Positions 20,517 through 36,589 of a DNA stretch of 64,000 nucleotides are shown piece by piece; within the stretch, counting starts at the first letter, position 1, and the number at the start of each line of letters is the position of its first letter. The stretch lies in assembly GCF_900108915.1 (NCBI RefSeq), contig NZ_FNYH01000006.1:1-64000 (forward strand), given 5' to 3'. The position numbers were made by a program, and so were the translations under genes. Origin of the DNA: Allopseudospirillum japonicum (GTDB taxonomy: Bacteria > Pseudomonadota > Gammaproteobacteria > Pseudomonadales > Halomonadaceae). The notes below the pieces were generated by a model. It saw nothing but the letters and a program-made list of their open reading frames with translations, ran no database searches and was not told the DNA's origin.

Positions 20517-21530
20517 ATGGACGATTTATCCCCTTCAGACCTTAAAGTGATCTTGCACTCGAAGCGTGCCAATATGTATTACTTGGAACACTGCCGTGTA
20601 ATGCAAAAAGATGGGCGCGTTTTATACTTAACTGAGGTTAATAAGGAAAACCTCTACTTTAATATCCCTATTGCTAATACCACAGTATTAATGCTTGGTA
20701 ATGGTACTTCGATTACGCAGGCAGCAATGCGTATGCTTGCGCAAGCTGGGGTGTTGGTTGGATTTTGCGGTGGTGGGGGCACGCCACTGTATATGGCCTG
20801 CGAAATAGAATGGCTGACACCACAAAGCGAATATCGTCCTACGGCATATTTACAAGGTTGGATGGGCTTTTGGTTTGATGACGATAAACGTTTAGCTGCC
20901 GCTAAAAGCTTCCAACAAGCGCGGATCCATTATTTACAACACGTATGGCAAAAAGACCGTGATTTAAAAAGTGAGGGCTTTGATTTTGAAGATAAAAGCA
21001 TTCAAAGCGCCCTTGATCTCTTTTTTACCCGCACCCAAGCTGCAACCAGCTCGCAAGAATTATTACTGACTGAAGCACAACTGACCAAAGTGCTCTACAA
21101 GTACGCAGCTCATCTCACGCAAAACGCAGGCTTTAAACGTCAACATGAAGCAACTCGTACGGTGGCGATTGGCAAAGCCAACGATTTTTTAAATCACGGT
21201 AACTATCTAGCTTACGGTTTAGCAGCATGCACACTCTGGGTTTTGGGCATACCCCATGGTTTTGCAGTGATGCATGGTAAAACCCGCCGTGGTGCTTTGG
21301 TATTTGATGTGGCGGATTTAATCAAAGATGCGCTGGTTCTTCCTTGGGCATTTGTATGCGCTAAAGAAGATGCCACTGAACAAGCATTTCGCCAGCAGAT
21401 ACTACAAGCATTCATCGATCATAAAGCGCTTGATTACCTGTTTGAGCAGGTAAAAAAAGTGGCTTTGCAGGCGTTAACAGAACAGCAAATTGACGCAATT
21501 GAAAACGATCAAGTGGGTGACGCTTTATGA
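20517..21530 (+). CDS. cas1f: CRISPR-associated integrase Cas1 (type I-F)
   Basis: 337 aa, usual length for the I-F subtype. Catalytic metal residues are recognisable as E186 (LLTEAQLTK), H253 (AVMHGKTRRG) and D264/D267 (LVFDVADLIKD). LGNGTSITQAAMRML and GGGGTPLYMA are typical of Cas1f. With the Cas2 domain of the next gene it inserts new 32-bp spacers at the leader end of the array. Its last four bases overlap cas3 (ATGA). Confidence 0.97.
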   Translation: MDDLSPSDLKVILHSKRANMYYLEHCRVMQKDGRVLYLTEVNKENLYFNIPIANTTVLMLGNGTSITQAAMRMLAQAGVLVGFCGGGGTPLYMACEIEWLTPQSEYRPTAYLQGWMGFWFDDDKRLAAAKSFQQARIHYLQHVWQKDRDLKSEGFDFEDKSIQSALDLFFTRTQAATSSQELLLTEAQLTKVLYKYAAHLTQNAGFKRQHEATRTVAIGKANDFLNHGNYLAYGLAACTLWVLGIPHGFAVMHGKTRRGALVFDVADLIKDALVLPWAFVCAKEDATEQAFRQQILQAFIDHKALDYLFEQVKKVALQALTEQQIDAIENDQVGDAL

Positions 21531-24500
21531 TGGTCACTTTTGTTTCTCAATGTGAAAAAAATGCGCTCAAGAAAACCCGCCGCGTACTAGATGCCTTTGC
21601 CAATCGGATTGGTGATCATACATGGCAAACCCTGATCACCCAAGAAGGGTTGAACACAGTTAAAAAGATGCTACGAAAAACGGCGAGCCGTAGCACTGCG
21701 GTCAGTTGCCACTGGATCCGCTCTCGTTCGCGCAGTCAGTTGTTATGGGTTGTGGGGAATCAACGGAAATTTACTTTGGAAGGGTATGTGCCGGTGAATA
21801 GTACAGAGAAAAACCTGTTGCACAGTGAATACGAAAATGATTGGAAATATTTACCTTTAATTAAAGCGCTGGCGGCGATGGCGGCATTACTACACGATTG
21901 GGGTAAAGCTTCTTTATTATTTCAAGAAAAATTAAACCCTGAGATAAAAACCAAGCGTCAAGGTGATCCGCTGCGCCATGAGTGGATCTCTTGCTTGCTA
22001 TTTCATCAGTTTGTGACAAGTCAAGGTTCTGAAAATCACGATCAAGCTTGGTTAAACGCACTCATGCATCAAGGAATTGATGAATCGGGCTTTGCTCCTG
22101 ATGCCTTGCTAAGAGAAAAATCTTTAGCAGATTTACCCACAGCTGCAGCCCTTATCGCTTGGTTGATTGTTTCTCACCACCGACTCCCTTTGCCTAAAGA
22201 CGCCGACTTGTGTAAGGCGCAAAGAGAAAAGACAAACGCTTCGTTTAATGACTTATTGAGCAAAATTACCTCAGCATGGGGCTATGAAAACCGCTTTGAT
22301 GAATACAACACATTGCTGCCGAAATGTTTTGAGTTTCCGTTAGGGCTGCTTTCTGACTCCAAGGTTTGGCGTGCTGAACTCGCGTATCGTGCAAAAGATT
22401 TATTACATCACTTACCCTTATTAGCGCAGGCCATGCAAGATGGTAGTTGGCGGGTGATTTTGCATCATGCGCGCTTGAGCTTGATGTTAGGGGATCACTA
22501 TTACTCTTCGCAACCGAATGATCATCAATGGAAAACGTCTGTAGACCTGTACGCTAACACAGATCCTAAAAGCAAAGCACTTAAGCAAAAGCTCGATGAG
22601 CATTTAGTTAAGGTTGCTAAAGTCACTGTGAAGACAGTGAAGTTATTGCCATTTTTCGAATCTGAGCCACTCAAAGCAACGGAGCTCAACGAGCTTGCAC
22701 CTAAGGCTAACACACCAAAAACCTTCCGCTGGCAAGATAAAGCAGTACGTAAAATCACGGAGTGGCGTGCACACACGGAAGATCAAAGCCAAGGCTATTT
22801 TGTGGTCAATATGGCAAGTACAGGCTGTGGCAAAACCATCGCTAACGCCAAAATGATGCAGGCGTTATCTGAAGATGGTGAAAGTTTACGTTTTATCCTT
22901 GCGCTTGGCTTGCGTACTTTGACCTTACAAACGGGGGATGAATATAAAAAACGCCTGCAATTGCAAGACAGTGATTTGGCGGTTCTGATTGGCTCAAAGG
23001 CGATTTATGAACTGCATCAATCCGGTCAAGCGGTTGATAAAGAAGACATTGAGCTTTATCAAGCTGAGCTAGGTTCTGAGTCGCTGGAAAATCTGCAAGA
23101 AGAAACAAGCGAAGTACATTGGCAAGGTGTGTTACCTGAAGAAGAATTGACCACCATTCTTTCAACTGATAAAGGAAAATGTCAGAAATACAGGGCTTTA
23201 CTTTACGCTCCAGTGCTGGTGTGCACCATCGATCACATTATGGCCGCGACCGAAACCAAACGTGGTGGACGTTATATTTTGCCTTGCCTGCGTTTAATGT
23301 CGTCGGATTTGGTGATTGATGAAATTGACGATTTTACGGGCGATGATCTGATTGCGATTGGCCGGTTAGTGCATTTGGCCGGTATGTTGGGGCGCAAAGT
23401 GATGATTTCCTCCGCAACTATTCCACCGGATTTAGCGCTTGGCTTGTACAACGCCTATCGCCAAGGCTGGGCAATTTTCGCTGCTAGTCGTAACCGCGCC
23501 ACTAGGATTAATTGTGTGTATGTTGATGAATTTACGACACAGACGCAATGCATTGGGAGTTGTGATCAGGATTTAGCCACTTACCAAGCGTTGCAGCAAA
23601 ACTTTATCACTCAGCGAGTGGCAAAACTTAAAGGTCAGCCTGTTAAACGTAAAGCTGAAATTCTTGAGTGCGTTAAGTTAGATGATCAACCACTAGAAAC
23701 ACAGTATTTCGAGATCATTAAACAAGCGGTGTTGGTCAAGCATCAGCAGCACCATAGCATAGATCCTGCAAGCCAAAGACAGGTTTCCTTCGGTGTGGTA
23801 CGAGTTGCCAATATTGCGCCTTGTGTCGAACTCACCCGATATCTACTGAGTTGTGATTGGCCTGCAGAGACCGAAGTGCGTTGTATGGCTTATCACAGCC
23901 AGCAAGTGTTGTTGCTGCGTCATGCACAAGAAAAGCATTTGGATGAAGTGCTCAAACGTAAAGAAAAAACCGGAGAATTACCTGCCGCTTTGACTCATCC
24001 TATCATTCGTAACCACCTAACCACTTGCCAAGCAAAAAACCTGATTTTTATTTTGGTGGCAACGCCAGTAGAAGAAGTGGGGCGAGACCATGATTTTGAT
24101 TGGGCTGTGATTGAGCCTTCTTCTTTCCGTTCGATTATTCAAATGGCAGGGCGTGTACGTCGGCACCGTGATGGAGAAGTCTTGGTGCCTAATATTGGTG
24201 TGTTGCAGTACAACGTTAAAGGCTTTCAAGGAGGACAAGCGCGTGTCTTTAACCGCCCAGGCTATGAAACACACCAAGTTCCGCCGCTAAAAACCCATGA
24301 TTTGAAACAAGATTTAGTCGATGAGACCGCACTTTTGCAATCGGTCAATGCGATTGCGCGTATTCAAAAGCCAGCGGCATTACAGCCACAAAATCGCTTA
24401 GTCGATTTAGAGCATTTTGCGACCGCCAAAACTTTTGGGATCGACCAAATTGGTAAGCCAGAGACAAAACAGGTCAGCCGGCAGGATAGATTTAGCCGCA

Positions 24501-24922
24501 ACCGTCGTAACAGCGCGCCGCCGCCATCTTGGAGTGAGCATTTGCACGGTCATATTCACGGCTACTGGTGGCTTACCGCATTACCGCAATTTTTCAAACG
24601 CTTTCGTAAAAGTGAACCCACGGTGCAAATTTATTTGGTTAAAAAAGAGCGCTGCATTGAGTTTTGTTTGCGCGAAGAGCGAGGCGGCGGTTTATACCCG
24701 ATTGAACGCACTTTAAATATTAGTCATCAGCCGCTGGCACCAGAGCAACAAGAGAAACTCTGGCTGCAACGCGATTATAGCGAGTTGGTAAGTCAGTACA
24801 GTCCAAACGCTGAACAGGAGTACGCTATTTCAGTACGTTATGGCGAAATCAGCTTTACCCATCGTGAAGGTCATCAGCAATTCATCTACAACGACCAATT
24901 GGGGTTAGTAAAAGAAGCTTAA
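21527..24922 (+). CDS. cas3f: Cas2-Cas3 fusion helicase-nuclease (type I-F)
   Basis: 1131 aa. Residues 1-90 are the Cas2-like domain fused at the N-terminus, a hallmark of type I-F. The HD nuclease follows with LLHDWGKAS (H123-D124), RHEWIS and SHHRLP. Helicase motifs are GCGKT (K436), DEID (D598-E599), SSATIPP and QMAGRVRRH (from Q872). It degrades DNA bound by the Csy complex and takes part in spacer uptake with Cas1. Translationally coupled to cas1 by a 4-bp overlap. No interruption seen. Confidence 0.97.
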   Translation: MMVTFVSQCEKNALKKTRRVLDAFANRIGDHTWQTLITQEGLNTVKKMLRKTASRSTAVSCHWIRSRSRSQLLWVVGNQRKFTLEGYVPVNSTEKNLLHSEYENDWKYLPLIKALAAMAALLHDWGKASLLFQEKLNPEIKTKRQGDPLRHEWISCLLFHQFVTSQGSENHDQAWLNALMHQGIDESGFAPDALLREKSLADLPTAAALIAWLIVSHHRLPLPKDADLCKAQREKTNASFNDLLSKITSAWGYENRFDEYNTLLPKCFEFPLGLLSDSKVWRAELAYRAKDLLHHLPLLAQAMQDGSWRVILHHARLSLMLGDHYYSSQPNDHQWKTSVDLYANTDPKSKALKQKLDEHLVKVAKVTVKTVKLLPFFESEPLKATELNELAPKANTPKTFRWQDKAVRKITEWRAHTEDQSQGYFVVNMASTGCGKTIANAKMMQALSEDGESLRFILALGLRTLTLQTGDEYKKRLQLQDSDLAVLIGSKAIYELHQSGQAVDKEDIELYQAELGSESLENLQEETSEVHWQGVLPEEELTTILSTDKGKCQKYRALLYAPVLVCTIDHIMAATETKRGGRYILPCLRLMSSDLVIDEIDDFTGDDLIAIGRLVHLAGMLGRKVMISSATIPPDLALGLYNAYRQGWAIFAASRNRATRINCVYVDEFTTQTQCIGSCDQDLATYQALQQNFITQRVAKLKGQPVKRKAEILECVKLDDQPLETQYFEIIKQAVLVKHQQHHSIDPASQRQVSFGVVRVANIAPCVELTRYLLSCDWPAETEVRCMAYHSQQVLLLRHAQEKHLDEVLKRKEKTGELPAALTHPIIRNHLTTCQAKNLIFILVATPVEEVGRDHDFDWAVIEPSSFRSIIQMAGRVRRHRDGEVLVPNIGVLQYNVKGFQGGQARVFNRPGYETHQVPPLKTHDLKQDLVDETALLQSVNAIARIQKPAALQPQNRLVDLEHFATAKTFGIDQIGKPETKQVSRQDRFSRNRRNSAPPPSWSEHLHGHIHGYWWLTALPQFFKRFRKSEPTVQIYLVKKERCIEFCLREERGGGLYPIERTLNISHQPLAPEQQEKLWLQRDYSELVSQYSPNAEQEYAISVRYGEISFTHREGHQQFIYNDQLGLVKEA

Positions 24923-24952
24923 AAACAGGAAAGGCTGGGAAAAACCCAGCCT
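24921..24952 (-). terminator. Minus-strand terminator of the mini-CRISPR RNA
   Basis: AGGCTGGG (24932-24939) and CCCAGCCT (24945-24952) form an 8-bp stem. On the minus strand it is followed by TTCCTG and then five T. On the plus strand, just after cas3, it has no T-run, so its orientation fits the antisense mini-array better than cas3. Confidence 0.7.
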
Positions 24953-24953
24953 G

Positions 24954-25025
24954 AAGCTACCTGCATGGTAGTGAACATCTTAAACAATTAAATAATTTTC
25001 TAAGCTGCGCTTTTCGCAGTGGGTA
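24954..25025 (-). ncRNA. Mini-CRISPR cas-regulating RNA (CreR-like) between cas3 and csy1
   Basis: Minus strand, 5' to 3': pseudo-repeat 1 (25020-24997) matches 19 of the last 24 bases of the array repeat, including the exact 5'-handle CTTAGAAA; its stem is CTGCG/CGCAG instead of CTGCC/GGCAG, a paired change. A 20-base pseudo-spacer (24996-24977) reads ATTATTTAATTGTTTAAGAT. Pseudo-repeat 2 (24976-24954) matches 19 of 23 bases with stem CTACC/GGTAG, again compensated. A terminator follows. Cas6f should process it to a short crRNA-like guide. The guide matches 25077-25096 at the csy1 promoter. The 5' end is not defined; TACTGT (25037-25032) is a weak -10. The published CreR-type or cas-regulating mini-CRISPRs have this layout. 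Confidence 0.85.
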
Positions 25026-25076
25026 GAGGCTACAGTAGGCAAGATGCACTTGCAAAGAAAAAATAATCAATTTTTT

Positions 25077-25098
25077 ATTTTAAATAATTAAATAATGG
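25077..25098 (-). promoter_or_regulatory. Target site (protospacer plus CC PAM) of the mini-CRISPR RNA
   Basis: On the minus strand CC (25098-25097) precedes ATTATTTAATTATTTAAAAT (25096-25077), which equals the pseudo-spacer except at positions 12 and 18. CC is the type I-F PAM on this side of the protospacer. The site touches the -35 element of the csy1 promoter, so a bound Csy complex should block it. Confidence 0.8.
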
Positions 25099-25127
25099 TT
25101 GATAAAATTTTGGGCTGTCTATAGACT
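25099..25127 (+). promoter_or_regulatory. Candidate promoter of the csy1-csy2-csy3-cas6f operon
   Basis: TTGATA (25099-25104) with TAGACT (25122-25127) at 17 bases, or TATAGA (25120-25125) at 15 bases. It lies 33-60 bp before the csy1 start and directly adjoins the mini-CRISPR target. Confidence 0.55.
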
Positions 25128-25159
25128 GATTAAAACTTGATCGAAAAAGGAGATATCAG

Positions 25160-26440
25160 GTGTTAGATCCAGCAATAGCCGCCTTTTTTGCGGAGCGTAA
25201 AGAAGCATGGCTAAAGAAAAATATCAGTGCAGCAATGTCTGATGCAGAAGTATTAGAAAAACAACAGGCGTGTGAGCAGAACTTTTTATTAGATAACTGG
25301 TTGCCTGATGCGTCGCGTAGAGTATGCAGTAGGGCGTTAACTACTCATCCAAGTAAATTTAGCCATCCAAGTACAGGCGTTGGAAAAACAAATATTAAGG
25401 ATGGCACCTTTGTATCTCCTGTATTGTTTGAAGGAAATCAACGTAATGATGGCTTTTTCAGATCTGGCAATGTGAGATTTGATTTGACCGATTCAGTTGG
25501 AGACGCTGGTGCGTTGGCTGCTGAAGATTTTCTTCGCGTTACTCTTTCTGATGGTATGAGTGTTCTTCAACACATCGAGTCTGAGACTAAAGTAGCTAGA
25601 GAGCTTTTAACGGTTAAAGGTGTTGACTATGAACAACTTCGCTCAAGCTTCTTAGCTATTAAAAGTACAAGTGAAGAAACGTCTACGAACTCAAAAATCA
25701 AGCAGGTTTATTTTCCGGTCGCAGATCAGCAGTATCACTTACTTTCTTTATTGACGCATTCTGGGCATTTATTTGAGCTTCGACAACGACTTGATGCCCT
25801 TCGATTTAGTAATGAAGCGAATGAGGCAAGAGAGTGTAAGAAAGCAAATCGGTTTCATCCCGCTGGTTATCAAGAAATATTCGGTCTCACCACGATAGGA
25901 TTTGGTGGAACCAAACCTGCAAATATAAGTGTGTTAAACAATAAATTTGCAGGTAAAGCGCATTTGCTGCCTTCCATGCCACCTGAGTTAACACCTCGCA
26001 ATATCCGTTTGCCAAAAACCGACTTTTTTAAAGAGAGTTTTACCGCTTGGCAAGCCAAAGAGGTACTGGAAGCGCTGCATCGCATCTTTCTCACCGATTA
26101 CAACAATATCAGTATTCGTGATGGGCGCGATTACCGCATTCAGCAATACCTTGATTTGGTGATTGAAAAAATGTGGCAAGTACGTCTGTTTCTCGAAGCG
26201 TATTCGGGTGAATTATCGAGTGCCTTGCCTTTGGAGCAAAAGATTTGGCTCTATCCAGAGTTTACTGAGCAGCGTCAGCAAGAGGATGAGTGGCTCGATC
26301 AAATTACTCGCCATATTGCCCGTGGCTTAAGAAATCACTACACACGCAGTAAAGTGATTGCCAATCCCGTCACCTTGGCAGACCAAGAGCTGTTGGCGAT
26401 TGAAAAAGTGGTCGCCAGCAATCAGGAGAACTTGCGATGA
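25160..26440 (+). CDS. csy1: Cas8f/Csy1, large subunit of the type I-F Cascade
   Basis: 426 aa, usual Csy1 length. Recognised from its overall sequence (IAAFFAERKEAWLKKNI at the N-terminus, the FGGTKPANIS-like segment in the middle, and the C-terminal helical region). Csy1 with Csy2 holds the 5' handle of the crRNA and reads the CC PAM. The start is GTG at 25160, six bases after AAAGGAGA. First gene of the Csy operon; ends overlapping csy2 by ATGA. Confidence 0.95.
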   Translation: MLDPAIAAFFAERKEAWLKKNISAAMSDAEVLEKQQACEQNFLLDNWLPDASRRVCSRALTTHPSKFSHPSTGVGKTNIKDGTFVSPVLFEGNQRNDGFFRSGNVRFDLTDSVGDAGALAAEDFLRVTLSDGMSVLQHIESETKVARELLTVKGVDYEQLRSSFLAIKSTSEETSTNSKIKQVYFPVADQQYHLLSLLTHSGHLFELRQRLDALRFSNEANEARECKKANRFHPAGYQEIFGLTTIGFGGTKPANISVLNNKFAGKAHLLPSMPPELTPRNIRLPKTDFFKESFTAWQAKEVLEALHRIFLTDYNNISIRDGRDYRIQQYLDLVIEKMWQVRLFLEAYSGELSSALPLEQKIWLYPEFTEQRQQEDEWLDQITRHIARGLRNHYTRSKVIANPVTLADQELLAIEKVVASNQENLR

Positions 26441-27324
26441 AGGTATTAATTTTACCGCATTTAAAAATTCACAACGCCAATGCACTTTCCAGCCCCTTTA
26501 CTATTGGCTTTCCAGCGATGACGGCATGGTTAGGCTTTGTGCATGCCTTAGAACGCAAGCTGATCCAAGCTGGTTTATCCGATCTGATGCTGCAGAGTGC
26601 GGCTGTGGTAAGCCACCGTTGTGATGTACAGATTTATAAAGGCGAAGGTGATTACGTCCACTCGATCATAGGGACGGGTAATCCACTTGATAAGGAGGGT
26701 TCACGCCCAGCATTTATTGAGGAAGCCCGCTGTCATTTAGATATTTCCCTTGTGATTGAGTGGAGTGGCAATGAGGATCAAGTTGAGCAAGCAGATTTTG
26801 CCGAACAGTTACAAGCGGTGATCGCGACGATGAAAGTCGCAGGCGGCGACGTTTTTTCCGTTGGGAAGCCCTCAATTCAATCAGTGATTACGGAAGAGGA
26901 TACAGCCCAAGTCCTACGCCAATTAATGCCAGGTTATGTGCTGATCGAACGCCGCGATTTAATGATTGAAGCTATGCAGCAAGGCGCTGATGCGCTGGAT
27001 GCCTTGCTTGGTTACCTCACCGTACACCACCAATGTGAACAACTTGAAGATGAAAGTGTGGTTTGGCGTAGCCAGCGCAAAACCAGTGGCTGGATTGTGC
27101 CCATTGCTACCGGTTTTCAGGGTATTTCGCCATTAGGTGAGGCAAAAAATCAGCGCGATCCTGAGGTACCGCACCGCTTTGCTGAAAGTGTGGTCACCCT
27201 AGGGGAATTTGTCATGGCGCACAAAATCAAGCACCTCGATAACATCCTTTGGCAATACCACCCCGATTTAGAAAACGATCTTTACCTTTGTCAGCAAGTC
27301 AACGCTATCAACGAGCATCAATAA
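26437..27324 (+). CDS. csy2: Cas5f/Csy2, type I-F Cascade subunit
   Basis: 295 aa. The N-terminus (LILPHLKIHNANALSSPFT, then IGFPAMTAWLGFVHAL) is diagnostic of Csy2, as is the long Gly-rich linker region later (VAGGDVFS). It pairs with Csy1 to form the tail of the complex around the 5' handle. Its ATG overlaps the csy1 stop (26437-26440). Confidence 0.95.
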   Translation: MKVLILPHLKIHNANALSSPFTIGFPAMTAWLGFVHALERKLIQAGLSDLMLQSAAVVSHRCDVQIYKGEGDYVHSIIGTGNPLDKEGSRPAFIEEARCHLDISLVIEWSGNEDQVEQADFAEQLQAVIATMKVAGGDVFSVGKPSIQSVITEEDTAQVLRQLMPGYVLIERRDLMIEAMQQGADALDALLGYLTVHHQCEQLEDESVVWRSQRKTSGWIVPIATGFQGISPLGEAKNQRDPEVPHRFAESVVTLGEFVMAHKIKHLDNILWQYHPDLENDLYLCQQVNAINEHQ

Positions 27325-27335
27325 GGAGTGATCTC

Positions 27336-28367
27336 ATGGCTAAAAATAAAGACCTTGTATCAGTACTCGCATTTGAAAAAAAATTAGTGCCATCCGATGG
27401 CTATTTCTTTGGATGCCAGTGGGAAACCAAAGAGCAAGCAACCCCATTAGCTCTGCAAGAAAAATCCGTGCGCGGCACGATTTCCAATCGCTTAAAATCA
27501 GCGGTGAAAAATGATCCCGCTAAACTGAATGCGGAAGTTGAGAAAGCAAACTTACAGCGAGTGGATGCCTGTGCTTTGGGGCAAGATCAGGATACTTTGA
27601 AATTGCATTTTACGCTGAAAGTATTAGGCGGTCTTGCTCAGCCTTCTGCCTGTAATAATGCGCAGTTTAAACAAAGTTACAGTGCTGCAGTTTCCCAATA
27701 TATTGACAAATATGGTTTTGTTGAATTGGCAAAACGCTATGCCACTAACCTTGCTAATGCCCGTTTTTTATGGCGCAACCGAGTGGGTGCCGAAGTAATT
27801 GAAGTGCAGGTGAAAGCGTTAAACCAAGGTGCAGAGCAAACTTGGACTTTTGATGCTAAACAATTTAGCACACGTCATTTTGATCATCAGGATGCACAAG
27901 TCCATAGCTTGGCAGAGCGTATTGCCAAGGCGCTGGCGAGTGAATCTGATTGTTTGATGCTGCAAATTGACTGTTATGCCAAAGTCGGTAAAGCACAAGA
28001 AGTTTATCCAAGTGAAGAGTTAGTGCTGGATAAAAGCAATAGTAAAACCAAGAAAAGTAAAATCCTTTATGCAGTCAAGGATCATGCTGCGATGCACTCG
28101 CAAAAAATCGGTAATGCACTGCGTTCCATTGATACTTGGTACCCAGAATACGCATCCGAAGAACAAAGCGCAGGTGCGATTGCCATTGAGCCTTATGGTG
28201 CTGTGACCAATTTAGGTAAAGCCTTCCGTACCCCAAAAGATAAGCAGGACTTTTACACCTTCTTTGATAAATGGGCGCGTGGTGAAGATTTACCGCGTGA
28301 AGAAGATGAACACTACGTCATGGCGGTATTGGTACGCGGTGGTGTGTTTGGTGAAAGTGATAAATAG
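27336..28367 (+). CDS. csy3: Cas7f/Csy3, backbone subunit of the type I-F Cascade
   Basis: 343 aa. MAKNKDLVSVLAFEKKL and SDGYFFGCQWE at the N-terminus and the TRHFDHQDAQVHSLAERIAK region are typical of Csy3, which polymerises along the spacer part of the crRNA, one copy per six bases. ATG 27336 follows AAGGAG (27323-27328); the open frame extends upstream into csy2 but without family resemblance. Confidence 0.95.
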   Translation: MAKNKDLVSVLAFEKKLVPSDGYFFGCQWETKEQATPLALQEKSVRGTISNRLKSAVKNDPAKLNAEVEKANLQRVDACALGQDQDTLKLHFTLKVLGGLAQPSACNNAQFKQSYSAAVSQYIDKYGFVELAKRYATNLANARFLWRNRVGAEVIEVQVKALNQGAEQTWTFDAKQFSTRHFDHQDAQVHSLAERIAKALASESDCLMLQIDCYAKVGKAQEVYPSEELVLDKSNSKTKKSKILYAVKDHAAMHSQKIGNALRSIDTWYPEYASEEQSAGAIAIEPYGAVTNLGKAFRTPKDKQDFYTFFDKWARGEDLPREEDEHYVMAVLVRGGVFGESDK

Positions 28368-28376
28368 GTGGCAGTG

Positions 28377-29015
28377 ATGAACTACTACCAAGAAATCACT
28401 TTGCTACCAGAGGCAGAAATACCTCTTGCCTTTCTTTGGCAAAACGTTTTTCAACAAGTGCACATTGCTTTGGTGGAGCACAAAGTGGCGAGCAACCAAT
28501 CTCTGGTTGCGGTCGGTTTTCCTGAATACGGCCAGAAAGGCTTTCCTCTGGGCAGTAAGCTGCGCTTATTTGCTAAGGAGCAAGCGACACTGGAAAAGTT
28601 AGCGATTGATCAGTGGCTCACTCGGTTGCAAGACTATGTCCACATCAAAGGAATTAAACCCGTACCAGAGGATGTAAGTTACGTCAGCTTTGTACGCAAA
28701 CCGGTGAAATCACCCGAACGAGTGGAGCAAGAGATGCAGCAAAAGGCCACCCTATGGGCAGCAAAATCCGGTAAACCCTTAGTGGAATGCTTAGCGGATT
28801 TGCAACAAAGCAAGCCGATAGCCTGGTGTACTTTGCCGTTTATTTACTTGCACAGTCAACAAACCAAGCAATGCTCGCCGGATAAAAGCAGCAAATTCCC
28901 GCTGTTTATTGAGATGCTGCCTCAAAGTACAGCATTGGAAGGACAGTTCAATTGCTATGGGCTAAGCCAAAAAGGGAGGACACAGCAGACATTAGCCACT
29001 GTTCCGCATTTTTAG
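28377..29015 (+). CDS. cas6f: Cas6f/Csy4, pre-crRNA processing endoribonuclease
   Basis: 212 aa. With the ATG at 28377 the conserved catalytic histidine falls at H29 (QQVHIAL), the number it has in the P. aeruginosa enzyme. AGGTGG five bases upstream supports this start over the GTG at 28368. It cleaves each repeat 3' of the stem-loop, leaving the CTTAGAAA 5' handle, and stays on the hairpin as the head of the complex. It should also process the mini-CRISPR RNA. Last gene of the Csy operon. Confidence 0.95.
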   Translation: MNYYQEITLLPEAEIPLAFLWQNVFQQVHIALVEHKVASNQSLVAVGFPEYGQKGFPLGSKLRLFAKEQATLEKLAIDQWLTRLQDYVHIKGIKPVPEDVSYVSFVRKPVKSPERVEQEMQQKATLWAAKSGKPLVECLADLQQSKPIAWCTLPFIYLHSQQTKQCSPDKSSKFPLFIEMLPQSTALEGQFNCYGLSQKGRTQQTLATVPHF

Positions 29016-29170: not shown

Positions 29171-30218
29171 GTTCACTGCCACACAGGCAGCTTAGAAAAC
29201 GCGCCTATCTGACATTATCGACGTAACCGTGTTCACTGCCACACAGGCAGCTTAGAAACTGCTTGACTACCACCGAAAGCATCGTAAAGCGTTCACTGCC
29301 ACACAGGCAGCTTAGAAATGACCGGTGCGGTTGCCTCCTTGAGCGCCACCGTTCACTGCCACACAGGCAGCTTAGAAATGAGCCAGTAAGTACCTCAAAA
29401 CCGCACTGGCGTTCACTGCCACACAGGCAGCTTAGAAAAACGCCGTCTACACGATGGGTGATGCGTCAAAGTTCACTGCCACACAGGCAGCTTAGAAACG
29501 ATGCGTGCATTTGAGTAAAGCATTTTACCCGTTCACTGCCACACAGGCAGCTTAGAAAAGCACTGCGCGACGAACCGCTTTAGACTCACGGTTCACTGCC
29601 ACACAGGCAGCTTAGAAAAGACGCTAGCAGCGGGTGAAGATGGCACAGAAGTTCACTGCCACACAGGCAGCTTAGAAAGATTGTTGGTTGTTCTGTCGTT
29701 GTTTGTGCAAGTTCACTGCCACACAGGCAGCTTAGAAAGATCATGTTCAAGGCTACGATGCAAGCAGTCTGTTCACTGCCACACAGGCAGCTTAGAAAAG
29801 GCTTGTGCGTCCCTTTTTTAGTGATGACTGGTTCACTGCCACACAGGCAGCTTAGAAAGTATAGACGCTTGTAGCGGCGTCCTACGGTTCGTTCACTGCC
29901 ACACAGGCAGCTTAGAAACAAATCCCTTGGGCTTTGTCTGCTATCTCTTGGTTCACTGCCACACAGGCAGCTTAGAAAACCGCGAAATCGAAGCGGCAAC
30001 CAACCTCTTGGTTCACTGCCACACAGGCAGCTTAGAAATCAAGCTGTGGGTAGCTTGTTGTCACCCGCCCGTTCACTGCCACACAGGCAGCTTAGAAAAA
30101 GGCGAGCGACACGCTCATGGTATCGGGTGAGTTCACTGCCACACAGGCAGCTTAGAAAATGCGTGTCATCAGCGCGGCACCACGATTATAGTTCACTGCC
30201 ACACAGGCAGCTTAGAAA

Positions 30219-30910
30219 ATCATTATATCAGAAAGCTCGCTAAAGCTCGTGTTCACTGCCACACAGGCAGCTTAGAAAAGAGTGGAGGGTAAGAAGCCAT
30301 CACTGGCTAAGTTCACTGCCACACAGGCAGCTTAGAAAAGCTCGCGCGCGCGCTCTGCAATTTTTTTCTTGTTCACTGCCACACAGGCAGCTTAGAAAAA
30401 CAGTTTCACCCTACACTAACGCATCCACCAGTTCACTGCCACACAGGCAGCTTAGAAAATATAATCCGCGTGCAGGCGGTTTTGCTCGACGTTCACTGCC
30501 ACACAGGCAGCTTAGAAAAGCTAGATGCTTTTCGTGATACCTACGGTGCAGTTCACTGCCACACAGGCAGCTTAGAAAGTACTCAAGGGCTGATGGCTTG
30601 CAGTCGAGCCGTTCACTGCCACACAGGCAGCTTAGAAAATCATTATATCAGAAAGCTCGCTAAAGCTCGTGTTCACTGCCACACAGGCAGCTTAGAAAAG
30701 AGTGGAGGGTAAGAAGCCATCACTGGCTAAGTTCACTGCCACACAGGCAGCTTAGAAAAGCTCGCGCGCGCGCTCTGCAATTTTTTTCTTGTTCACTGCC
30801 ACACAGGCAGCTTAGAAAAACAGTTTCACCCTACACTAACGCATCCACCAGTTCACTGCCACACAGGCAGCTTAGAAAATATAATCCGCGTGCAGGCGGT
30901 TTTGCTCGAC
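30219..30910 (+). repeat. Duplicated five-spacer block A (spacers 18-22 equal 25-29)
   Basis: The five spacers starting at 30219, 30279, 30339, 30399 and 30459 recur unchanged at 30639, 30699, 30759, 30819 and 30879, an offset of 420 bp (seven units). Spacers 23 and 24 lie between the copies. Probably unequal recombination between repeats followed by loss of units. Confidence 0.97.
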
Positions 30911-33818
30911 GTTCACTGCCACACAGGCAGCTTAGAAAGCGACCTTCAGCCGTCCCTTGCTAGCCTAGGCGTTCACTGCCACACAGGCAGCTTAGAAACC
31001 CATGAGTGGCCCGCTGGGGCGCTAGCACACGTTCACTGCCACACAGGCAGCTTAGAAAGCTAGACGGGGTTTGCGCTTGCTGTGGAGGCGGTTCACTGCC
31101 ACACAGGCAGCTTAGAAATGCGATGCAGCTGATGTTGCGCCTAAGTCACTGTTCACTGCCACACAGGCAGCTTAGAAAAAGACAAGGAGGATTTGGCATG
31201 TATATCTGGCGTTCACTGCCACACAGGCAGCTTAGAAACAATCAGGCATATCATCTTCGGTCATGCTTGGGTTCACTGCCACACAGGCAGCTTAGAAAAG
31301 ATTGAGTTCCGCTGCATTTTGTTGACTTTGGTTCACTGCCACACAGGCAGCTTAGAAAAAAAAGTACAAGGCGCAGAATGGCGTGGCATCGTTCACTGCC
31401 ACACAGGCAGCTTAGAAAATAAATATCGCGTAATCAGCAACCCAACCGTAGTTCACTGCCACACAGGCAGCTTAGAAAGCAGATTACTTAAACGTCGTGG
31501 ATGGCGGCGGGTTCACTGCCACACAGGCAGCTTAGAAATCCCGTTCACTGCGCTTCTTGAAGTGAAAAACGTTCACTGCCACACAGGCAGCTTAGAAAGC
31601 TAGAGTTTAAATTAAAAAGTGAAGCTATCTGTTCACTGCCACACAGGCAGCTTAGAAATCTTATCTTGCGTGCTTGCTCAAAAACAATCTGTTCACTGCC
31701 ACACAGGCAGCTTAGAAAGCACGTGGATCCGAGAGTTATCATCCAGCTAGGTTCACTGCCACACAGGCAGCTTAGAAATGCATCTGTGATGTCAGTGCCC
31801 ATCAAAATATGTTCACTGCCACACAGGCAGCTTAGAAAAATAGTGCCTTCACTAGAACAAATCAAAACGCGTTCACTGCCACACAGGCAGCTTAGAAACA
31901 CAAACCCGGGCGGCGACTCTAGATCAATATGTTCACTGCCACACAGGCAGCTTAGAAAAGCTTGCTTAAAGCGCGGATCGTTTGCCATGCGTTCACTGCC
32001 ACACAGGCAGCTTAGAAAAAAAGTCACTTGCGAAAGGCCGTAGAGTATCGGTTCACTGCCACACAGGCAGCTTAGAAATATCGCACTTACTAAAGCCATA
32101 GTACTTGTAGGTTCACTGCCACACAGGCAGCTTAGAAACGCCATCTTTCTTGATCCGCTAGTAAAGTCAAGTTCACTGCCACACAGGCAGCTTAGAAAGT
32201 CGTTACGAAACTGCATGATGTCGCCGTGGAGTTCACTGCCACACAGGCAGCTTAGAAAAACAAGGTCAAAACAGCCTGCTCAATCTTGGTGTTCACTGCC
32301 ACACAGGCAGCTTAGAAAAATCTTGTCGGTAGCGGCCTTGTAAGCATTAAGTTCACTGCCACACAGGCAGCTTAGAAATAAAGGCGGCGATGCAGGACGA
32401 AAGCGGGCGTGTTCACTGCCACACAGGCAGCTTAGAAAAAAGTCATTTCGCTGCATGGCGCTAAAAGTCAGTTCACTGCCACACAGGCAGCTTAGAAATG
32501 CTGCGGCTGGGCGTTTCTAGTGGTTGGGTTGTTCACTGCCACACAGGCAGCTTAGAAAGGACTGAAAGACGATTTTTAGCGGCACTTGAGGTTCACTGCC
32601 ACACAGGCAGCTTAGAAAAAATCGCGGCATATTGCACGGATGAGATCGGGGTTCACTGCCACACAGGCAGCTTAGAAATGGCGTGGGCCAGTGCGGCTTC
32701 GAAGTGCTTAGTTCACTGCCACACAGGCAGCTTAGAAATTTACTTGATACCTTACCCAAAGGGTGGCGCTGTTCACTGCCACACAGGCAGCTTAGAAATG
32801 CGGTATATGGTTGGCAGGCATGGCCCCGCCGTTCACTGCCACACAGGCAGCTTAGAAAGATAAATAAGCAAATCCTCCCTGCTGTTTTTCGTTCACTGCC
32901 ACACAGGCAGCTTAGAAAGTACGGATCATGGTGCATTCTGTGTGACTTGGGTTCACTGCCACACAGGCAGCTTAGAAAAGTTGATCAACTTTAGTTACAA
33001 GGCCGGTAGAGTTCACTGCCACACAGGCAGCTTAGAAACGGTGCAATGATGGGCACCACATCCCGTGGGCGTTCACTGCCACACAGGCAGCTTAGAAACA
33101 GTTCTGGGCAATCCCCGAAGCCGATTGGATGTTCACTGCCACACAGGCAGCTTAGAAAACAAGAAGTATCCAGAAGCCACGTGGGTCGTTGTTCACTGCC
33201 ACACAGGCAGCTTAGAAATGTGATGATTTCCGCAGCAAGCTCCAGCATGTGTTCACTGCCACACAGGCAGCTTAGAAAAATCAATGCCAAGCTCAGACAT
33301 TAGTTGAGACGTTCACTGCCACACAGGCAGCTTAGAAAGCAGACAACAAAAAACCCGCACTAGGCGGGTTGTTCACTGCCACACAGGCAGCTTAGAAACA
33401 TTGTCGCGCCGTGGATTGAGTCGCCACCAGGTTCACTGCCACACAGGCAGCTTAGAAAACGTAGGCAACCGAAAGGTTAGTGCTAGTTGTGTTCACTGCC
33501 ACACAGGCAGCTTAGAAAAGTACGACGCTTTTAATCACGTCGCTTTACTTGTTCACTGCCACACAGGCAGCTTAGAAAACACTTGCTGTGGCCGCCGATG
33601 CAGGAGTTGTGTTCACTGCCACACAGGCAGCTTAGAAACCAGATGCGCAGCTACTTGCTATCGCGGATGGGTTCACTGCCACACAGGCAGCTTAGAAATC
33701 CAAGATGCATATCCGCGCCCGTGGCGCACCGTTCACTGCCACACAGGCAGCTTAGAAACCCAGCCTTTGCCAGTGTCTTTTTATATAAGCGTTCACTGCC
33801 ACACAGGCAGCTTAGAAA

Positions 33819-34870
33819 GCCACCAAAGGGCAGCAAGAGGCTTACCGTGCGTTCACTGCCACACAGGCAGCTTAGAAACGTCGGGATAGCCGCAAAATAA
33901 AGATAACAAAGTTCACTGCCACACAGGCAGCTTAGAAATGTATATTTTCTTGTCCTGTATAATCCCGATAGTTCACTGCCACACAGGCAGCTTAGAAACA
34001 ACACATCGGGATCAAACTTGATCAGGTCAAGTTCACTGCCACACAGGCAGCTTAGAAAAAAGTGCTCATCCTAGGCCAGCACGCCACCTTGTTCACTGCC
34101 ACACAGGCAGCTTAGAAAGCCAAGCCCGCTGAGGGCATGAGCATCAACGAGTTCACTGCCACACAGGCAGCTTAGAAAAGACCCGTATACACGGGCGACG
34201 GCTGGTGCATGTTCACTGCCACACAGGCAGCTTAGAAAAAGCAGGCAAAGACCTTTAATCGAGCGTGGGTGTTCACTGCCACACAGGCAGCTTAGAAATA
34301 GTATGAAAAAAGTCAAAGCAATCAATACCGGTTCACTGCCACACAGGCAGCTTAGAAATCTTTGTAGTGCAATCCGTCACGCATACCCTTGTTCACTGCC
34401 ACACAGGCAGCTTAGAAAGCGTTGTCCGCGTCTTTCAGACTTTAGCCGAAGTTCACTGCCACACAGGCAGCTTAGAAAGCACGGCGTTTGGCTCATCACT
34501 GCGGGCATTGGTTCACTGCCACACAGGCAGCTTAGAAACGCTTTTCGTGTTTCCGTTCTTCTGTGCTATGGTTCACTGCCACACAGGCAGCTTAGAAAGC
34601 CACCAAAGGGCAGCAAGAGGCTTACCGTGCGTTCACTGCCACACAGGCAGCTTAGAAACGTCGGGATAGCCGCAAAATAAAGATAACAAAGTTCACTGCC
34701 ACACAGGCAGCTTAGAAATGTATATTTTCTTGTCCTGTATAATCCCGATAGTTCACTGCCACACAGGCAGCTTAGAAACAACACATCGGGATCAAACTTG
34801 ATCAGGTCAAGTTCACTGCCACACAGGCAGCTTAGAAAAAAGTGCTCATCCTAGGCCAGCACGCCACCTT
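33819..34870 (+). repeat. Duplicated five-spacer block B (spacers 78-82 equal 91-95)
   Basis: The five spacers starting at 33819, 33879, 33939, 33999 and 34059 recur unchanged at 34599 through 34839, an offset of 780 bp (13 units), with eight unrelated spacers between. Confidence 0.97.
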
Positions 34871-36151
34871 GTTCACTGCCACACAGGCAGCTTAGAAAGT
34901 GGCACTCAGTTCCGGCAATGGGCTACCCGGGTTCACTGCCACACAGGCAGCTTAGAAAAACTCAAGCGCGGCAACCAAGCAGCGGTTGCCGTTCACTGCC
35001 ACACAGGCAGCTTAGAAAGCCTTGTGCCTAATGCGCTAACACAGGCTATCGTTCACTGCCACACAGGCAGCTTAGAAATATAGCGCTCCTTACATAGACC
35101 CCTTTGATAAGTTCACTGCCACACAGGCAGCTTAGAAACGCACGTACTTATACTTTGAGCACTGGACATCGTTCACTGCCACACAGGCAGCTTAGAAATC
35201 AAAGACAAGCGTGTGCACGATCCGCTCAAGGTTCACTGCCACACAGGCAGCTTAGAAATATAAAAGTACAATCTTAACACTGTACGATTAGTTCACTGCC
35301 ACACAGGCAGCTTAGAAAAACACATAGGCACAAAAAAGCCCCTATGGGCTGTTCACTGCCACACAGGCAGCTTAGAAACTTCTGATACGTGCTTGCGATT
35401 AGTCGCAATCGTTCACTGCCACACAGGCAGCTTAGAAAGTAATGACAAGCGCGTTTTTGGGCCTGAAAAAGTTCACTGCCACACAGGCAGCTTAGAAAGA
35501 ACTCAACGCTTACGAAGAAGACAAGGGAAGGTTCACTGCCACACAGGCAGCTTAGAAATGTGGCGTCAAAAGTTCGGCATCCATGCCTAAGTTCACTGCC
35601 ACACAGGCAGCTTAGAAAAGCGAGGTCATGAGCGAAGACGAGTACGTATAGTTCACTGCCACACAGGCAGCTTAGAAAGGACTGTGCTGCGGCCTCATAG
35701 ATGCGGCCAAGTTCACTGCCACACAGGCAGCTTAGAAATCTTGAGCGCTCACGCCTCGCATAATTCTGTAGTTCACTGCCACACAGGCAGCTTAGAAAAT
35801 TGATTTAATGATGGCTTTTTTCTGGGGGTTGTTCACTGCCACACAGGCAGCTTAGAAATTGGGATTGTTTTTCCCGTCTCCCAGCGCCAAGTTCACTGCC
35901 ACACAGGCAGCTTAGAAATGACGCTGTGTTGATTGGTGTTACAGCAACGCGTTCACTGCCACACAGGCAGCTTAGAAATCTGGGACCCCACCGTTTTGTT
36001 ACCGCCCCAAGTTCACTGCCACACAGGCAGCTTAGAAATATAATCCTGGGTAAACCGTGCCGTTTGAGGTGTTCACTGCCACACAGGCAGCTTAGAAAAG
36101 TGTGGACGGCAGGGACGTATACCCGAGGCCGTTCACTGCCACACAGGCAGC

Positions 36152-36589
36152 TTAACTTTTTGTGTATCTTAATTCTAATTTTAGCCTATGCCAGTCTGTT
36201 GCTGTCATTTGATCGGCATACAGGCTACAAGCAAAGGCTTGCCTTGAATGAAGAGGCTTTACTTGGAATCGGATATAGCTTCTGCCAAGCCATAAAGGGA
36301 CAAGACGTGCTGCCTGTACTTGTGTATCGGCCCATTGTAAACGCGGTGTTGGTTCAGCAAACAGAATCAAGCAGTGTAAGCTTTGGGTTTTTTGGTAATC
36401 TTGGTAACTCCAAAACCCCCAAAGCACACTGCCTAAAATAACAGCGATGAGTGCTGGTCCGCCAAGGTGGCTTAGCAGGTAATAGCTGAGAAGAATCAGC
36501 AAAGGCAAGGCCATTCCCCAGCTGATAACCAGCACATAACGTGCATAATTAGAGGGTGCGATATTGATCTGAATTGGTGTTTTCTGCAT
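36152..36589 (-). CDS. ygfX: YgfX/CptA-like membrane protein
   Basis: 145 aa, close to the usual length. Two adjoining transmembrane helices at about residues 17-60 (VLVISWGMALPLLILLSYYLL and LIAVILGSVLWGFWSY), then a soluble tail of beta character. The family is encoded with SdhE, as here, and in enterobacteria has been linked to SdhE function or reported as a toxin; the role is unsettled. Its start overlaps sdhE by 41 bp. Its stop codon (36152-36154) is formed by the last bases of the degenerate terminal CRISPR repeat. Confidence 0.8.
   Translation of the reverse strand: MQKTPIQINIAPSNYARYVLVISWGMALPLLILLSYYLLSHLGGPALIAVILGSVLWGFWSYQDYQKTQSLHCLILFAEPTPRLQWADTQVQAARLVPLWLGRSYIRFQVKPLHSRQAFACSLYADQMTATDWHRLKLELRYTKS

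Follow-up and report, generated by a model that had tools for sequence, protein, structure and literature searches.

A short, degenerate CRISPR mini-array lies on the minus strand between cas2-3 and csy1 of a type I-F CRISPR–Cas locus, and it is very probably a CreR-type (cas-regulating RNA) element with which the Csy complex represses csy1–csy4. The window, that is, the whole 64-kb stretch of DNA that was analysed from a host genome of 2.74 Mb, contains the complete locus with cas1, cas2-3, csy1–csy4 and a CRISPR array (Table 1). What can be read directly in the DNA is the anatomy of the element, the match of its spacer to a PAM-flanked target, the geometry of that target relative to promoter-like boxes, covariation of guide and target with a period of 6 nt among relatives and guide lengths that cluster in 6-nt steps. 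The element is contained in the gap of 237 bp that extends from the cas2-3 stop (24922) to the csy1 GTG (25160).

Table 1 Features of the type I-F locus and its mini-array in the window, in order of position
Feature	Position	Strand	Details and basis
cas1 (I-F)	20517..21530	+	PADLOC Cas1f/Cas1fv
cas2-3 fusion (I-F)	21527..24922	+	PADLOC Cas23f/Cas3f
Predicted intrinsic terminator of the mini-array RNA	24932..24952	-	8 pairs, loop of 5, T-rich tail; fold
ψ-repeat 2	24949..24976	-	Stem CTACC-ATGCA-GGTAG; sequence and fold
Pseudo-spacer (guide)	24977..24996	-	20 nt, ATTATTTAATTGTTTAAGAT; sequence; repeat family D18
ψ-repeat 1, in repeat register	24997..25024	-	Hairpin CTGCG-AAAAG-CGCAG, then intact handle CTTAGAAA (25004-24997)
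Predicted mini-array promoter, weak	25027..25055	-	TTGCAA (25055-25050), 17 nt, TAGCCT (25032-25027); start near 25020; by eye
Target (protospacer) of the pseudo-spacer	25077..25096	-	18/20 matched; mismatches at 12 and 18 only; 100 bp away
CC PAM	25097..25098	-	Precedes the target on the minus strand
Predicted csy1 promoter	25099..25127	+	TTGATA (25099-25104), 17 nt, TAGACT (25122-25127); start near 25134
csy1 (cas8f)	25160..26440	+	GTG start; Shine-Dalgarno AAGGAG; PADLOC
csy2 (cas5f)	26437..27324	+	PADLOC
csy3 (cas7f)	27249..28367	+	PADLOC; true start probably further in
csy4 (cas6f)	28368..29015	+	PADLOC
CRISPR array	29171..36158	+	116 exact 28-nt repeats, 60-bp spacing; degenerate final repeat at 36131

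An earlier sequence-only reading had described two degenerate repeats around a 20-nt pseudo-spacer, followed by a terminator, all on the minus strand between cas3 and csy1, and this arrangement proved exact to the base. The two repeat-like hairpins (ψ-repeats) share 20 and 19 of their 28 positions with the array repeat, GTTCACTGCCACACAGGCAGCTTAGAAA, whereas the best of 3000 mononucleotide shuffles reached 18. The paired stem substitutions described in that reading were also found, as each ψ-repeat stem is the stem of the array repeat with one base pair exchanged, and the 5′ handle of ψ-repeat 1 is intact, as it had stated. A short spacer between two repeat-like hairpins is a hallmark of CreR and is present here in both sequence and fold, whereas the identical 28-nt repeats and 32-nt spacers of an immune array are replaced by two degenerate repeats and a 20-nt spacer. 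By analogy with I-F repeats, Cas6f would presumably cut ψ-repeat 2 after 24957.

Scanning for terminators gave 1 compared to a mean of 0.4 in shuffles, and folding of the RNA from 25020 to 24922 recovered both hairpins together with the terminator (z = −3.3; 1 of 200 shuffles was equally good). Part of the handle is engaged in a helix with the pseudo-spacer in the same fold, which counts against a CreR-type reading; the Csy proteins would have to open this helix. The predicted mini-array promoter, with 7 of 12 consensus bases, is equalled in score by the script's own pick, TTGATT-18-CATCTT, a further point against. Promoter-like pairs stand at the same place in two relatives, L035 (TTGAAA-17-TAGCCT, the script's pick) and L037 (TTGCAA-17-TAATCT, by eye).

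The second copy of the pseudo-spacer beside CC was confirmed, with differences at positions 12 and 18 only, as had been claimed. Mononucleotide shuffling of the promoter-side stretch gave no CC-flanked site with two or fewer mismatches in 20000 trials, and by arithmetic two mismatches would both land on multiples of six (6n) with a chance of 3 in 190. Every sixth guide base is flipped out, each Csy3 covering 6 nt (PMC7305327), and guide-base flipping is also stated in PMC11127173. The claim that the site touches the −35 likewise stood, as target and PAM abut the predicted −35 box of the csy1 promoter, whose predicted start site lies about 26 nt from csy1. A spacer with a partial match (18/20) to a CC-flanked site in a predicted cas promoter, another hallmark of CreR, is present. 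Promoter-like pairs in the stretch scanned numbered 4, compared to a shuffle mean of 1.0.

The unit repressed would be csy1–csy4 and not cas1/cas2-3. The terminator scan found no plus-strand terminator after cas3, which counts against the CreR-type reading, since read-through could continue into csy1–csy4 and dilute repression. The host genome was also searched with a pattern that left the flipped positions open and allowed up to 3 mismatches, with the reversed pattern as a control. The target site was matched with 0 mismatches, the pseudo-spacer itself, which lacks a CC, with 2, and a single further CC site with 3; because the reversed pattern gave 4 matches, the 3-mismatch level is noise. 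One exact degenerate pattern of the window's guide gave 0 matches in viral contigs, a result that is silent on other guides.

Relatives were assembled in two sets. A two-row Csy1 alignment scanned against genome contigs yielded 56 loci, 15 of which carried an element, and these together with the window and L005, L009, L089 and L098 from whole-genome searches form the first set (n = 20). Nineteen were picked by inspection from 32 hairpin-plus-handle rows in 103 loci, and L073 was added by eye; the 13 rows not taken comprised 6 second repeats of chosen elements and 7 resembling random matches (L009 plus strand, L011, L035 second, L037 plus strand, L052 at 3973, L087 and L100). The second set was drawn from 40 family upstream stretches (40 of the 48 matches without a locus) and from loci of a phylum and order search. 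An automatic two-hairpin rule applied to 165 csy1-flanking loci gave 43 candidates, or 44 with L073 by eye, and 36 were kept, 16 of them new, in which the best CC site lay on the same strand with at most 6 mismatches. The eight dropped were L011, L035 second, L037 plus strand, L113, L129, L140, L151 and L156. Included in the 165 loci are the window's own copy, duplicates (L002/L042, L042 being an Oceanospirillum multiglobuliferum contig, and L101/L103) and incomplete stretches such as L092.

Divergence of pseudo-spacer and promoter without covariation had been named beforehand as the outcome that would speak against the sequence-only reading. The opposite was seen, as the 36 elements pair locus-specifically with a site beside CC and their mismatches concentrate on 6n positions. 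In each of the 20 elements of the first set, the best CC site lies on the same strand and has 2 to 6 mismatches over 20 positions, compared to 6 to 11 for the second-best CC site. Non-6n mismatches numbered 0–3 of 17 in their own pairs, while 380 swapped pairs had a median of 8 of 17 and a minimum of 1; the 8 swapped pairs at four or fewer are probably close kin. Within positions 1–18, mismatches fell on 6, 12 or 18 in 37 of 50 cases in the first set and in 33 of 51 in the 16 new elements, giving 70 of 101 overall with 31 outside 6n, counts that come from loci sharing ancestry and so not independent (L119/L131 and L126/L136 are near-copies). Positions 19–20, left out of this count, hold 36 further mismatches, and with them the proportion is 70 of 137. 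Expressed per cell over the 36 elements, the mismatch rate is 0.65 at 6n positions and 0.057 at the others of positions 1–17.

The claim that mismatches occur only at flipped-out positions thus stood for the window and failed as a general statement: within positions 1–18, 12 of the 36 elements have mismatches at 6n only and 24 have at least one elsewhere, most often at positions 8 and 14 (6 each). When the best match was sought with no PAM required, it lay on the same strand and was preceded by CC in 36 of the 36 kept elements, which had been kept by the CC-site rule; a preceding CC was present in 40 of 44 candidates overall, the extra four being two opposite-strand matches and two with 8 mismatches. 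Random 20-mers from the same regions matched as well in 1 of 623 cases. Pairing maintained in relatives (36 of 44 candidates kept) is a further CreR hallmark found here. Counting against the reading are three loci with ψ-repeats and no good 20-nt target (L113, L151 and L156) and two with an opposite-strand target only (L129 and L140). L113, L151 and L156 each show a CC site that pairs over about the first 12 positions, with mismatches at 6, 12 (two of them) and from 13 onward, and may have very short guides.

Pseudo-spacers of the 36 elements are 15 (1), 19 (4), 20 (12), 21 (1), 24 (1), 25 (3), 26 (4), 27 (8), 31 (1) and 32 (1) nt long. These lengths form two clusters, near 20 and 26 nt (phase 2.03 modulo 6, R 0.71), which fits 32 minus 6 or 12; single-base offsets may be artefacts because the edge of ψ-repeat 2 was set by rule. 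Spacers of 14–50 nt carry 3–9 Csy3 (PMC7305327), and a I-B system retains repression, but neither interference nor priming, with spacers no longer than 24 nt (PMC10989794).

The promoter geometry of the window recurs in most minus-oriented relatives, in which a −35-like box abuts the site and is followed by a −10-like box at 16–18 nt. TTG lies within 2 nt of GG, the complement of the PAM, in 24 of 33 minus-oriented elements (14/17 in the first set and 10/16 in the second), and the PAM is 60–66 nt from csy1 in 11 of the 17 from the first set. Promoter scores summed at this fixed place reached 139 in the first set (102.8, sd 4.7, in 2000 mononucleotide shuffles) and 115 in the second (89.0, sd 4.6, likewise in 2000). 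Counting against generality, a promoter-like pair next to the PAM is absent in L005, L111 and L144 (scores 3–4) and poor in L126 and L141. Three Campylobacterota loci (L061, L073 and L078) have the opposite layout to the remaining 33 kept elements: the mini-array lies on the plus strand, and its target is located between it and csy1. By eye, these targets coincide with or adjoin a promoter-like pair.

A quick tree of 58 Csy1 proteins, built without bootstrap, contained 18 with an element and 40 without, where absence means undetected by the hairpin-plus-handle rule. Presence required 16 changes on this tree compared to 15.6 for shuffled labels, and well-supported branches force 13. The nearest Csy1 kin of the window (L032–L034, 89–93% identical) have a 14-bp gap and no element, which counts against the reading and makes the mini-array seem dispensable, while the elements of L035 and L037 (Csy1 72 and 63%) look orthologous to that of the window. 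Two Amphritea loci with nearly identical Csy1, L047 and L049, have gaps of 19 and 236 bp. From this patchy presence and the gap differences between close kin, the cassette appears to have been gained and lost often. A more distant Csy1 relative (39%) on an IMG/VR contig catalogued as viral (L031) has a 242-bp upstream gap in which no mini-array was detected.

For the mechanism, we infer the following course from these features. A short minus-strand RNA would start near 25020, and Cas6f (Csy4) would process it to a guide about 48 nt long, consisting of the 8-nt handle, the 20-nt pseudo-spacer and a 3′ hairpin. The guide would be loaded into a Csy complex, probably with fewer Csy3 copies than a 32-nt crRNA carries, and the loaded complex would find the CC-flanked site, sit against the −35 box of csy1 and block transcription of csy1–csy4. 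The short R-loop would allow binding without recruiting Cas2-3 for cutting. Release of the promoter would be expected when array crRNAs compete for the Csy complex or when an anti-CRISPR disables it.

Cas-regulating mini-arrays are a kind of element already known, and the window very probably provides a further example. Mini-arrays whose spacers are imperfect complements of cas promoters, especially that of cas8, were reportedly described by Shmakov et al. 2023 (NAR), where a mini-array of type I-F1 is said to have worked as a regulatory guide in a test. The window element probably does not differ in kind from such I-F1 regulatory mini-arrays. A literature search, which did not reach Liu 2023 or Shmakov 2023, turned up no mention of the 6-nt length steps or of the abutment of PAM and −35. 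PMC13131331, citing CreR (Liu et al. 2023 Cell Host Microbe), names I-B, I-E and V-A as subtypes with such autorepression; CreR is also mentioned in PMC12948488 and reviewed in PMC12737573. The window element resembles CreR in its crRNA-like mini-array RNA, its partial match to a cas promoter and autorepression by a type I effector, the RNA and the repression being predicted here. It differs from CreR as cited in belonging to I-F and in that it would repress csy1–csy4 only.

The I-F CreA of Acinetobacter, with a 20-nt guide and a CC PAM, exerts transcriptional repression through Csy (PMC10097628; Wang et al. 2023), a Csy dependence that is predicted for the window element. Both elements occupy the cas3–csy1 gap and share two ψ-repeats, a 20-nt guide, a CC PAM and few mismatches. 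In Acinetobacter the target governs a toxic RNA that contains a 33-bp ORF (PMC10097628), whereas in the window the predicted csy1 promoter itself is covered. Solitary repeat units of phages (Racr) similarly place CRISPR repeats outside an array, but are phage-borne and act as anti-CRISPRs, in contrast to the chromosomal window element with its guide and target (PMC10651486).

Given the likeness to Acinetobacter, the element could be the antitoxin half of a CreTA pair, in which repression would be directed not at the csy operon but at a small toxin RNA (creT) from the gap; we consider this improbable. The published guide, from the same gap, has mismatches at 6, 11 and 18 (PMC10097628), and a weak Shine-Dalgarno match of 4 bases accompanies each of two 15-codon plus-strand ORFs in the window, which start at 25019 and 25044. 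These ORFs lie upstream of or across the target, however, and neither is downstream of it as creT is in Acinetobacter (PMC10097628). The anatomy of ψ-repeats, short spacer, CC PAM and nearby target is common to CreTA and CreR, and so is not diagnostic. A scan of start codons and Shine-Dalgarno matches found no creT-like ORF in the window from the target to csy1, where the start codon of csy1 alone has a match of at least 4 bases, and for this reason we set CreTA aside here. Room is also short, with the predicted csy1 transcript starting so close to the gene and the narrow PAM-to-csy1 spacing noted above, whereas the Acinetobacter gap by its published description is about 400 bp with the 33-bp ORF and has its target downstream of the start site (PMC10097628). 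An RNA toxin lacking a Shine-Dalgarno-matched ORF may nevertheless be present.

Three other readings give the pairing a different meaning. That the guide is loaded and binds with a main role other than repression, for example in adaptation priming or in holding a pool of idle Csy, is very unlikely, as the position against a −35-like box is conserved in most elements and short spacers lost priming in the I-B system (PMC10989794). A functionless remnant of a decayed CRISPR array would explain the degenerate repeats and the patchy detection among relatives, but not the compensated stems, the intact handle, the terminator or a locus-specific, 6-nt-periodic target match in 36 elements, since a decayed spacer would not track its own promoter; we give it hardly any weight. 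Nearly the same holds for a protein regulator that binds the two copies as a direct repeat, an idea to which two AT-rich 20-mers 90% alike lend some appeal and which has next to no likelihood, given that the sequence varies between loci while own-locus pairing is kept and mismatches recur with a period of 6. Covariation and 6-nt periodicity led us to reject both the array remnant and the protein-bound direct repeat.

Returning to autorepression by a CreR-type guide, a broader account is, on balance, probable. I-F guides of this kind would be shaped by the Csy ruler, such that flipped-out bases drift almost freely and guides are shorter than 32 nt by whole 6-nt steps (6 or 12 nt). A truncated Csy complex with four or five Csy3 subunits would serve each locus as its own repressor, able to bind the promoter there but not to trigger Cas2-3. 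Promoter and guide would form one cassette that has repeatedly been inserted and lost as a whole between cas3 and csy1. A single suggestive match becomes a strong natural experiment, in which 36 elements would reveal the guide positions that Csy reads as a repressor. The recurring placement of the PAM against the −35 should make I-F autorepression easy to predict and test, and near-identical cas loci with and without the cassette offer ready pairs for measuring the worth of self-repression.

Several minor features accompany these loci. A small ORF of 63–75 aa lies between the CreR-type promoter and csy1 in L071 (3784-4011), L074 (3817-4008) and L085 (3784-4008), from Pseudoalteromonas and Endozoicomonas; it overlaps the csy1 start and has MDKRYVITET or MMNKKYVKEE near its own start. 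By eye, a strong GC-rich inverted repeat follows the predicted −10 box in the csy1 leader of L118, L119, L122, L123, L126, L131, L134, L136, L137, L138, L141 and L144, and could be an mRNA-stabilising hairpin or creT-like. The I-F array of the window is very long, with 115 spacers between its 116 exact repeats, 105 of them distinct, and includes a duplicated spacer block, for example at 30191 and 30611.
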